From: Xanthostigma xanthostigma
Lineage: Eukaryota; Arthropoda; Insecta; Raphidioptera; Raphidiidae
Direction: 5' to 3'
Length of the DNA stretch: 64,000 bases
Assembly: GCA_963575645.1 (NCBI GenBank)
Contig: OY754473.1
Location: forward strand, 7,192,001 to 7,256,000
The position numbers and the translations under genes were made by a program. Of this stretch, positions 14,612-47,512 are shown in pieces (within the stretch, counting starts at the first letter, position 1; each line of letters opens with the position of its first letter). The notes under the pieces are model-generated. The model had not been told where the DNA came from. It did not search any database and saw nothing but the letters and a program-made list of their open reading frames with translations.

Positions 14612-15130
14612 AATTTTTTTTATTCAACTCATGCGCGTTATTCATGTTTTATCATGCCTAAAAACCGAACCCTAAATAGCCATTTACCGACTGGTGACAA
14701 TTACTTGTCATAACTCAATGAAGATTCCTACTAGCTCGGCCATTGTGGAGTAATGAAAATAAACGTAACTATTTTCTGAGTCGTAACGAAATAGTAGGTA
14801 ACAACAACTCCGTTGTTACCCATTGAGACTAAAATTGAGAGGCCGAATGTTTTCGACATGGAGTTTATTCATAACCGGCTAACCTCAAACCAAAACATTG
14901 AATCGTGCTGTTTGGTGCTGTTAGTATTGACAGTTTTTTTTATAAAGAAATAAATAGATATTTACAACATCTCATTATAATTAAAACATGAATAACGCGC
15001 AATTGTTGAATAAAATTATGGGCGCAACTTGTAGGCTAAGTCATGACCTGTCATCGCGCTGACACGCCATGAATGACTTAGACTACTAGTTACGCCAATA
15101 ACTATTATTTAATGGTTTGTTCGGTTTTTA
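14612..15130. mobile_element. MITE cluster with interlocking inverted repeats
   Basis: An outer pair TAAAAACCGAAC (14659) / GTTCGGTTTTTA (ends 15130) brackets ~470 bp. A second pair, TTATTCAACTCATGCGCG..ATTCATGTTTTA at 14620-14650 and its complement at 14984-15013, interlocks with the first. A third hairpin, GGGCGCAACTTGTAGGCTAA / its complement at 15017-15112, lies inside. Two or more MITEs nested in each other explain this best. Confidence 0.6.
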
Positions 15131-15182
15131 ACATATTCGGAGAATTTACTGTTTTGACCATCAAAAAATTAATCTGAAAAAA

Positions 15183-16698
15183 TGAGTTGTATAGAATCAA
15201 AACTTACATTCTCCAACATAAGTGAATTTTGGGAAATGACGAAAAACTTCTACTGACCCTATTATAAACGCAATTGTTATAACAATAAGTCATAAAATAG
15301 AGAAAAAAATACTAATTTAAATGGTACTAATAAATAACAAGTTTAGAATATGCAAATATAAAATTTTTTATGTTTTTGTTTGGATAATGTGAGTTTTGAA
15401 AACCACATCTGGAGAATGTGATTTTTGTAACAACCGTCCGAAGAGAATGTCAGTTTTGAAACTCACATCTGGAATGTTTTGGGTTTTTACTGCAATTATC
15501 TAGTATATTTTAAAGTGGCTAATAAAATTACAAGTCTATTTATGTATAATAATAATTATTATTATATATTTTTACCTGTTCTAAGGACATAGGTAACAAA
15601 AACATTGAAATAATACAACTGAAAATATTATTATAGTATCAAAATAATAAACAATACATAATTCTATGAAAAAAAAATTAAACTCTTAAATCTACAGTCT
15701 CTTCTTGTGGTTCACAAATTTCATTTTCAGTTGTTTCTTCTGGTGTGTCATCAGCATCATCCATAACGGATTTCTTTCGTGCGGCATACAAATGTATTTT
15801 TCGATTACCACCTCTTTTCTCAGTGGGCAACTGACCGGTTTCATAAAATTTTTTTGATAATAGATTTATGCGAAATCTGGAAATATCCAGGATATTTAAA
15901 AATGTATTTAAGCATACAGGAATAAAGCGCATTTGCGCATCAGGCACAAAATATTTGCTGTGGCAGTCTGGTGTGTTGTAGCTATTATTTTTTGGTCGAC
16001 GCCTGTTCTTAGGCTTTGTTTCGATGTATTTTAGCAAAAATTTGTCTTGTTCTATTTTGCTCTTTGAACAATAAAAGTTCTGATGAAACTTAAGAATTTC
16101 ATGCATTTTTAAAGTTTTACACCGTAGTGACCCATCTAAATGTTTGCACTTGGGAGGTTGAGGGAGATTTTTCGCAGAATGCCTATATTATTAAATGCAT
16201 ATAATGCTATTAGTATTATAATAGTATATAGTTAATACAACACAGAAAATTAAGAATTGAAACGAACCTTTTCACTTTTTCTTTGCGGCATATCCACTCT
16301 TCAGGATTCCTTCTAGATTTTCTTGTTCTAGCGCCTTTACTACACGGACTAACACTAATTTCCATTTTAATAATGAGTAATAAATAATAATATTGTTACA
16401 AATTGTATTATTGTTCCTATATTTTAACTTAACAAAAGAACTCACAGTGTGTAAACAGACAGAATGAACAATACCGCGCAATGCACTAGTTCAGAGTCAT
16501 CACAATATCCTCGCAGGTGGAGAATGTGAGTTTTGAAACTAATTTCAATTTTTAAACCACTATTATCATAGGAGAATGTTAGTTTTGTCAGGATTTTATT
16601 TTACATACGTGTAGATTTCAAATTTTTCTACAAGATGACACTACTAACTCAATTTCGATAAAAAGTGGAGAATGTGAGTTTTGATTCTATACAACTCA
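15183..16698 (-). mobile_element. Family W: 1.5-kb TIR DNA transposon carrying a gene
   Basis: Terminal inverted repeats of 34 bp: TGAGTTGTATAGAATCAAAA followed by CTTACATTCTCCAA on the left and the complement of CTCACATTCTCCAC on the right, with two mismatches. The motif GGAGAATGTGAGTTTTG and variants recur just inside both ends (about 15394-15470, 16509-16545, 16570, 16665), as expected for transposase binding sites. The interior holds a two-exon gene on the minus strand. No clear target duplication is seen. Confidence 0.8.
15678..16365 (-). CDS. Two-exon, 200-aa transposase-like DNA-binding protein
   Basis: Exon 1 is 16365-16268 and exon 2 is 16182-15678, with a stop at 15680-15678. The 85-bp intron has a GT donor (AAG|GTTCGT) and an AG acceptor (AATATAG|GC) and the frame is preserved. 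Residues 1-33 hold a basic RKSRRNPEEW motif. A Cys/His-containing stretch (KCKHLDGSLRCKTL) is at about 43-56, an FLLKYIETKPKNRRRPKN motif at about 80-97, a PVCLNTFLNILDISRFRINL segment at about 119-138, and GQLPTEKRGGNRK at about 148-160. The tail after residue 170 is acidic. This order matches the N-terminal DNA-binding region of a large insect transposase-derived family (arginine-rich R-NP--W, Cys-rich zinc-binding segment, VC--TFL-ILDI helix, E-RGG). The DDE catalytic region is missing: the frame passes straight from N-terminal region to acidic tail. It is intact and lies inside the family W element, so a transposition repressor or non-autonomous remnant is likely; host recruitment is possible. 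Confidence 0.7.
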
Positions 16699-17189
16699 AA
16701 TGTACAATCGGATTTATTCATCGTGAGAAATTATAAATATTTTGGAAATCAAGCCTCGCAAAGTAAGTATTTTTACATTTTTTTTTTTTTTTTATTATTA
16801 CATTTCAACACGACTAATACTATATTTTTAGGAAATCTTTGAGTGATCGAAAAAATTGAATTCGACTGCAGCTGAAGTCGCAATAAGTTTATTTCAACTA
16901 TAAAACTGATGACGTACACATTTTTTTGAAAAAGGGTTTTTGATTGAAGAAACTTTTCACAGAGCTCCCGATAAATAAATCAGCGGTAATTATATTATCA
17001 ACCTTTTTTCAACATTCGCAATGATTATTATTTGTATAGAATGTAATAAAAAATAATGCCTAAATTGACGTCTAAATAATTTTTAGTGTGTTATAAAAAT
17101 AATAGTATTATGTATCTAGAAGGTAACAAAAGTTATTATGTCACGAGTTGGCGTTGTGCTCTGATATTACACACCGAGTGTAATCTTAG
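16699..17189. other. No feature seen
   Basis: AT-rich sequence with a poly-T run near 16779-16794; no coding. Confidence 0.4.
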
Positions 17190-45987: not shown

Positions 45988-47512
45988 CCGGTAACCGGAC
46001 TCCATATCCGCGGACAAAATATCCCCGACAAAATATCCTTGTTAAAATATCCTTGGACAAAATATCCTTGAGACAAAATATCCATGAGACAAAATGTCCT
46101 TTGTCAGAATATCCGTGGACAAAAAATGCAAAAAAAAATTGACTTTCTACATATAATTCTTTATAACTGTTTCTGACGTCAATTCCGGGGTGAACGATAA
46201 ACGGGTATGCGAATTGTAATTCCGGAGTGAACGATAAAGGGGTATGCGAATTGTCTCGCAGTGAAACGGGAAGGGGCAAATGATGAGTTTTTAAAAAAAC
46301 AATTCCGGGGTGAACGATAAACGGGTATGCGAATTGTAATTCCGGGGTGAACGATAAAGGGGTATGCGAATTGTCTCGCAGTGAAACGGGAAGGGGCAAA
46401 TGTGGAGTTTTTAAAAAAACAATTCCGGGGTGAACGATAAACGGGTATGCGAATTGTAATTCCGGAGTGAACGATAAAGGGGTATGCGAATTGTCTCGCA
46501 GTGAAACGGGAAGGGGCAAATGTGGAGTTTTTAAAAAAACAATTCCGGGGTGAACGATAAACGGGTATGCGAATTGTAATTCCGGGGTGAACGATAAAGG
46601 GGTATGCGAATTGTCTCGCAGTGAAACGGGAAGGGGCAAATGTGGAGTTTTTAAAAAAACAATTCCGGGGTGAACGATAAACGGGTATGCGAATTGTAAT
46701 TCCGGGGTGAACGATAAAGGGGTATGCGAATTGTCTCGCAGTGAAACGGGAAGGGGCAAATGTGGAGTTTTTAAAAAAACAATTCCGGGGTGAACGATAA
46801 ACGGGTATGCGAATTGTAATTCCGGGGTGAACGATAAAGGGGTATGCGAATTGTCTCGCAGTGAAACGGGAAGGGGCAAATGTGGAGTTTTTAAAAAAAC
46901 AATTCCGGGGTGAACGATAAACGGGTATGCGAATTGTAATTCCGGAGTGAACGATAAAGGGGTATGCGAATTGTCTCGCAGTGAAACGGGAAGGGGCAAA
47001 TGTGGAGTTTTTAAAAAAACAATTCCGGGGTGAACGATAAACGGGTATGCGAATTGTAATTCCGGAGTGAACGATAAAGGGGTATGCGAATTGTCTCGCA
47101 GTGAAACGGGAAGGGGCAAATGTGGAGTTTTTAAAAAAACAATTCCGGGGTGAACGATAAACGGGTATGCGAATTGTAATTCCGGGGTGAACGATAAAGG
47201 GGTATGCGAATTGTCTCGCAGTGAAACGGGAAGGGGCAAATGTGGAGTTTTTAAAAAAACAATTCCGGGGTGAACGATAAACGGGTATGCGAATTGTAAT
47301 TCCGGGGTGAACTAATTTTTTTCATAAATCCGCCGTAAAATGGAACTTTTTGAGACCGAGATCATTGAAATAGTGAAATTTTGGACATTTTGTCCGAGGA
47401 TTTTCCGTCCGAGGATATTATGTCCGAAGGATTTTTTGTCTTGAGGATATTTTGTCTGAGGATATTTTGTCCGGGATATTTTGTCCAGGATATTTTGTCC
47501 GAGGATATAGAG
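45988..47512. mobile_element. Foldback-like element with satellite core
   Basis: The left arm (46010-46128) is a run of degenerate ~16-bp repeats ACAAAATATCCTTG; the right arm (47382-47510) is the same run inverted (GAGGATATTTTGTCC). Outer edges also match inverted (GGACTCCATATCCGCGGAC and the complement of GTCCGAGGATATAGAGTC). Between them is the 120-bp array. Arms made of short direct repeats recall Drosophila foldback elements. No transposase. Confidence 0.7.
46181..47312 (-). repeat. 120-bp satellite, nine units plus part
   Basis: Exact 120-bp period from 46181 (46301, 46421 ... 47261), units ~97-100% identical. Each unit contains two related ~40-bp halves starting ATTCCGGGGTGAACGATAAA and a 40-bp tail AGTGAAACGGGAAGGGGCAA. 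Since 120 is a multiple of three, one minus-strand frame stays open for 431 codons (45944-47239) with a 40-residue period. The frame is a by-product of repetition and is not called a gene. Confidence 0.95.

Follow-up and report, generated by a model that had tools for sequence, protein, structure and literature searches.

The window analysed here is a 64-kb stretch of DNA (C10:7192001-7256000 in a 623-Mb assembly of 28 contigs), and it contains a short mobile-type element with inverted tips, flanking target-site duplications and a gene on the minus strand that encodes 200 aa plus a stop codon in two exons (Table 1). A preliminary description of this DNA had proposed a two-exon frame with GT-AG splice sites that stays open for 200 codons, and this gene structure was confirmed. 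The gene's frame is one of four stop-to-stop frames of at least 150 aa in the window; two of the other three lie inside a tandem repeat. A tandem array at window 46180-47312 (9.4 copies of a 120-bp unit, 99% match) contains two open minus-strand frames (455 and 380 aa), as expected because the unit length is a multiple of three.

Table 1. Features of the element and its gene, in window coordinates (TIR, terminal inverted repeat; 5′ and 3′ refer to the gene).
Feature	Position	Strand	Remarks
Putative non-autonomous Sola2-like element, whole	15184..16697	.	1514 bp; two other full copies, with different flanks
Left target-site duplication	15180..15183	.	AAAT
Right target-site duplication	16698..16701	.	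AAAT
TIR at the gene's 3′ side	15184..15215	+	
TIR at the gene's 5′ side	16666..16697	-	
Exon 1	16268..16365	-	98 bp, basic; homologous exon in 7 of 9 relatives examined
Intron	16183..16267	-	85 bp, GT-AG, weak donor GTTCGT; codon split as in the 7 relatives with exon 1
Exon 2 with stop	15678..16182	-	505 bp; transposase N-terminal C/H-containing and RGG region joined to C-terminal ~28 aa
Putative in-frame internal-deletion junction (approximate)	15766..15775	-	93-95% match to relic C-termini stops at 15768
Repeat site, left TIR	15198..15214	-	
Subterminal site	15382..15398	+	199 bp from 3′ tip
Subterminal site	15411..15427	+	228 bp from 3′ tip
Subterminal site	15442..15458	+	259 bp from 3′ tip
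Subterminal site	16519..16535	+	160 bp from 5′ tip
Subterminal site	16571..16587	+	108 bp from 5′ tip
Repeat site, right TIR	16667..16683	+	

Because the AAAT duplications set the borders of the element, its true tips lie at 15184 and 16697. The 34-bp inverted ends originally described do form an inverted repeat, but their outermost T and A belong to the duplication. The inverted ends as detected measure 33 bp at 97% identity; counted from the true tips, 31 of 34 positions are identical. No empty site joining both flanks was found among the 40 candidate places scored of 1381, and within this set the window locus alone matches both flanks. The left ~90-113 bp of flank recur widely in the genome. 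Just outside the element, at window 15016-15101, lies a hairpin-like short repeat with 29-nt arms that are 86% complementary; this repeat is probably a young MITE, since dozens of genomic places, most of them at 95-100%, match the first ~90 bp of the flank query.

A translated search of the genome with the window protein returned at least 88 matches, many of which fall in open frames of 535-611 aa. A catalytic core, whole or in part, adjoins the match in 25 of the 30 loci that were fetched, substantiating the resemblance to a transposase N-terminus that had been noted initially. Four of the five loci without a core stand for the three copies of the element discussed below (one of the four is exon 1 of the window copy); the fifth, L033, is a 126-aa open fragment. 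Pfam DUF7869 was identified in all four full-length relatives scanned (E 2.9e-10 to 3.3e-18), and the relatives share conserved blocks (SFDxQKN, DGCxxQN, GHSxxPxDxxF) that are presumably catalytic. The window element contains no such core, and a Pfam search with the 200-aa protein returned no family, consistent with the lack of a catalytic domain originally reported. Searches of NCBIfam with two relatives gave one match far below the cut-off and, for the other, none; a PDB sequence search with L048 found no match, and a profile of nine sequences recovered three weak PDB matches, all to unrelated proteins. The AlphaFold2 model of the exon-2 frame alone was unusable (pLDDT 38). Among the exon-2 residues of the retained part that are invariant across nine subfamilies, 14 of 16 are kept in the window protein; these include a C-x-H motif and one later H, which could bind zinc, and the retained N-terminal part is presumed to be the DNA-binding part of the transposase.

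Alignment places the window protein colinear with its relatives through the RGG region and the KKSV that follows, after which it jumps to the last ~28 residues, ending in LRV as do L044 and L048. At the DNA level, the C-terminal coding end of two relics, L050 and L051, matches window 15650-15768 at 93-95% identity, and both relics continue beyond that stretch into further transposase C-terminus. The acidic tail of the preliminary description is no foreign addition; since it aligns with the relatives' ends and matches the relics in its DNA, it is the transposase's own C-terminus. By this comparison the window gene is an in-frame internal deletion, with about 400 aa removed. Each of the seven exon 1 homologs contains a W-K motif, and their introns have the same codon split, GT-AG ends and lengths of 62-222 bp; no exon 1 homolog was found in L045 and L049, the other two of the nine relatives examined.

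The family is unevenly distributed in the assembly. Contig C10 holds 58 (counted by eye) of the at least 88 transposase N-terminus matches, mostly at 8.6-18.3 Mb; as C10 comprises 40.9 of 623.3 Mb, this is a strong regional concentration. Separately, at L049:3-1208 and L054:4422-6272, elements of the window element's family have transposase-like frames as neighbours; these are only distantly related and carry SDSCAGQNKN and GHSYxDSDRDFG blocks.

Clear inverted tips were found in seven of 14 loci scanned for ends (L041, L043, L044, L047, L048, L053, and L054). Inverted repeats without a clear tip of that kind are present in L045 and L049, and none were found in L039, L040, L042, L046, and L052. 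Judged by its tips, the nearest relative is L048 (C1:81602244-81604884), a 2641-bp element with the duplication ATTT, whose outer 19 bp are identical to those of the window element at one tip and carry one mismatch at the other; this genome thus contains a full-length relative whose outer tips are almost identical, which the preliminary description had proposed to look for. L048 resembles the window element also in its intron position and in its sites at 108 and 160 bp (5′) and 199 bp (3′) from the tips; it differs in carrying a 611-aa DUF7869 frame and in the letters of its inner sites. By protein the nearest relative is L039 (44% over 141 residues, vs. 38% over 136 for L048), whose one perfect tip differs from that of the window element at two of 19 positions. 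L039 and L040 have one perfect tip each (GAGGGGTATAGAATCAAAA) and are rearranged relative to each other; L039 has a second, imperfect tip on the same side as the perfect one.

Seven sites in the window element, two of them inside the tips, lie within two mismatches of the 17-bp GGAGAATGTGAGTTTTG. The mean in 60 single-base shuffles was 0.03 sites at up to four mismatches, and the subterminal repeats of the preliminary description are accordingly well founded. We take these subterminal sites to be presumed transposase-binding sites. Their geometry was compared in gene orientation, with the inner-tip motif of each element searched for in that element (up to four mismatches), across the window element and six of the seven relatives with clear tips; L053 was left out, and L043 and L054 were counted as one subfamily. 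A 5′ site at 160-161 bp is present in six of six subfamilies, and one at 108 bp in three of six. The window element, L048, L043, and L054 have 5′ sites at 108 and 160 bp, and L041, L044, and L047 have the site at 160-161 bp with none counted at 108, where their letters form a TCAAA-type site as judged by eye. A third 5′ site at 191-194 bp occurs in L041, L043, L054, L047, and L044 and is absent from the window element and L048. On the same scale, L053 has 5′ sites at 117 and 150 bp, positions consistent with a 43-bp loss relative to L054. On the 3′ side, the window element and L044 each have the full set of sites at 199, 228, and 259 bp; L048 has a site at 199 bp, L043 and L054 have sites at 198 and 227 bp, L041 has one at 226 bp, and none was found in L047 by these settings.

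Site orientation is uniform except for two matches in L044 (at 255 and 387 bp), and the middles of the seven elements counted contain no sites. The chance mean was at most 0.035 (maximum 2) in 200 two-base-block shuffles per element. In-register identity of the spacers was 0.24-0.44 on the 5′ side (shifted means 0.26-0.30) and 0.33-0.38 on the 3′ side (shifted means 0.29-0.35); it lay above the highest shifted value in five of 15 pairs (5′) and two of 15 (3′), and residual common ancestry therefore plays a part. The distance of the sites from the 5′ tip is near-constant, though the spacer sequence is near background. Among the 15 of 82 papers listed by one literature search, none combined "Sola" with "subterminal repeats", which is too thin a basis for a claim of novelty.

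A search with the whole element identified at least three full copies in the genome: that in the window and those at C1:59096167-59097681 and C3:50508790-50510304, which are 99.54% and 99.21% identical to it, respectively, and have different flanks and the duplications ATAT and ATAT. The recent origin suggested for the window element is upheld. Two partial matches, L051 (C10, 787 kb) and L050 (C10, 11.61 Mb), retain a single tip together with the 3′ region and the transposase C-terminus, and no N-terminal transposase part was found in either; L051 also contains a distant transposase-core fragment at 139-837. The two regions are 90-97% identical across some 6.0 kb of the 10 kb retrieved, in opposite orientation, and are taken as one duplicated insertion because the likeness includes flank beyond the tip. 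This insertion is a relic of the parent element. When the three copies are polarised with L050/L051, derived changes fall on both lineages, and the ancestor can therefore not simply be equated with any one of them.

In both of the other full copies (L002 and L003), the same in-frame stop at codon 85 ends the protein prematurely, and despite it both are complete elements with duplications. Since complete copies at two places share the stop, the intact frame was probably unneeded for at least one move of the stop-bearing copies. The three copies differ at five codons (one synonymous, three amino-acid changes, one stop); four of these five thus alter or stop the protein, a pattern that, in so small a sample, does not indicate purifying selection. 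The window copy is itself changed at residue 25, where the seven relatives with exon 1 agree. The splice donor GTTCGT is common to all three copies and lacks a purine at intron position 3, where seven of seven relatives have one. Retention of 14 of 16 invariant residues would fit recent loss or some constraint alike, and nothing in the five changed codons appears to favour constraint on the frame. Selection had been suggested as one reason for the frame's intactness, and neutral decay of other copies as evidence to the contrary; it is decay that was found, in the shared stop of L002 and L003 and the single synonymous change among five.

It is highly probable that the window element arose by internal deletion from a Sola2-like cut-and-paste transposon and is non-autonomous, mobilised in trans and left with a residual frame. 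Comparison with the relatives shows that an in-frame deletion stripped the transposase gene of its entire catalytic region (~400 aa) and spared both tips and the array of presumed transposase-binding sites. Transposase from the parent or a close relative would then have moved the element in trans, as suggested by its presence at three places, each with its own target duplications. The remaining 200-aa frame (the presumed DNA-binding part and C-terminal tail) would be a remnant now in neutral decay, to which the stop in two copies points. If translated, the protein would probably retain its binding to the ends of the element and might act as a competitor of transposase, but no sign of selection for such a role was seen.

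Searches for the source of transposase were made with the tips and the inner sites. The 15-bp tip has nine exact matches, of which the three copies account for six, the relics for two, and L048 for one; no intact parent with the window element's ends occurs among them. At up to one mismatch there are 73 matches vs. 23 for a control pattern; the assignment of tip matches left out 63 one-mismatch matches. The inner-site pattern at up to two mismatches gave 44 matches vs. 31 for its control. Of the 44, 21 lie inside the three copies, including all 11 with 0-1 mismatch, and the parent search with this pattern left out the other 23. These data suggest an active parent that has been lost, is absent from the assembly, or was missed by the tip and site searches. 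L048 has no site within four mismatches of the window element's 17-bp repeat, which disfavours simple cross-mobilisation by L048; such a role of L048 is possible and is not the favoured reading.

The superfamily name rests on the duplications. Those of the ten elements with resolved ends, the three copies included, are all 4 bp long, and nine of the ten fit AWWT. The account of Sola2 cited here gives AWWT as its duplication, with the instances ATAT, AAAT, and ATTT, and includes Sola2 copies that have lost the greater part of the transposase region (PMC3627910). The window element resembles Sola2 as described there in its TIRs and 4-bp, AT-rich AWWT duplication (AAAT, with ATAT in the other two copies) and in belonging to a group with deleted copies; it differs from a complete Sola2 in having no catalytic transposase domain, and because of this absence it is filed only as a non-autonomous relative. 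The family is therefore designated Sola2-like, by duplication type. That manner of assignment, together with the Pfam label of the core, which is only DUF7869, and the L047 duplication, ATTA rather than AWWT, leaves some room for a deletion derivative of a different superfamily in which the 4-bp duplication is coincidental. Given that the AWWT type in nine of ten elements is the one reported for Sola2 in that source, we consider this unlikely; it would be compatible with the same mechanism. Independently of the name, the rule for non-autonomous elements as set out in the Repbase text cited calls for the same duplication length and likeness at tip positions 1-11 with at most one mismatch (PMC4455052). 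The window element and L048 share a 4-bp duplication and outer 19 bp with no mismatch at one tip and one at the other, which by this rule puts them in the same superfamily.

Beyond classification, the 200-aa protein itself could have a function as a repressor. In the P-element literature cited here, repressors are characterised by an interrupted transposase and a retained DNA-binding part (PMC12393704), and both properties can be recognised in sequence in the window copy only. Like the KP element of Drosophila P, an internal deletion that keeps the ends and DNA-binding part and is described as a possible repressor in that source (PMC12393704), the window element has retained its seven sites, an open frame, and most of the invariant residues. 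A KP-like protein might bind the seven end sites, block the full transposase and limit movement of its own family, and perhaps also that of sister families with the same outer tip and site layout. Against this, the splice donor is weak in all three copies, an invariant residue is lost in the window copy, and the stop at codon 85 interrupts two of the three. The only other core-less match among the 30 loci is the 126-aa fragment of L033. Unlike KP, moreover, the window element is present in three copies only, two of them with a stop, and no relation to P was seen. A repressor role is accordingly judged improbable. That the gene is a domesticated or domesticating host regulator, as the preliminary description had also suggested, can be practically dismissed: the frame is open, potentially spliced and without a catalytic domain, but its element is still of mobile type, with near-perfect TIRs and duplications, and its 99% identical copies elsewhere carry a stop, and there is no sign of selection.

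The element from the window is best read as an ordinary and young member of its kind, a deletion derivative of a Sola2-like transposon whose open frame is a remnant. An apparent transposon with only a DNA-binding gene can now be assigned to the young deletion derivatives, and the case shows how little one open copy says about function once its sister copies prove to carry a stop. Because the site letters are element-specific and yet lie at near-constant distances from the 5′ tip, this family lends itself to tests of how transposase assembles on transposon ends.
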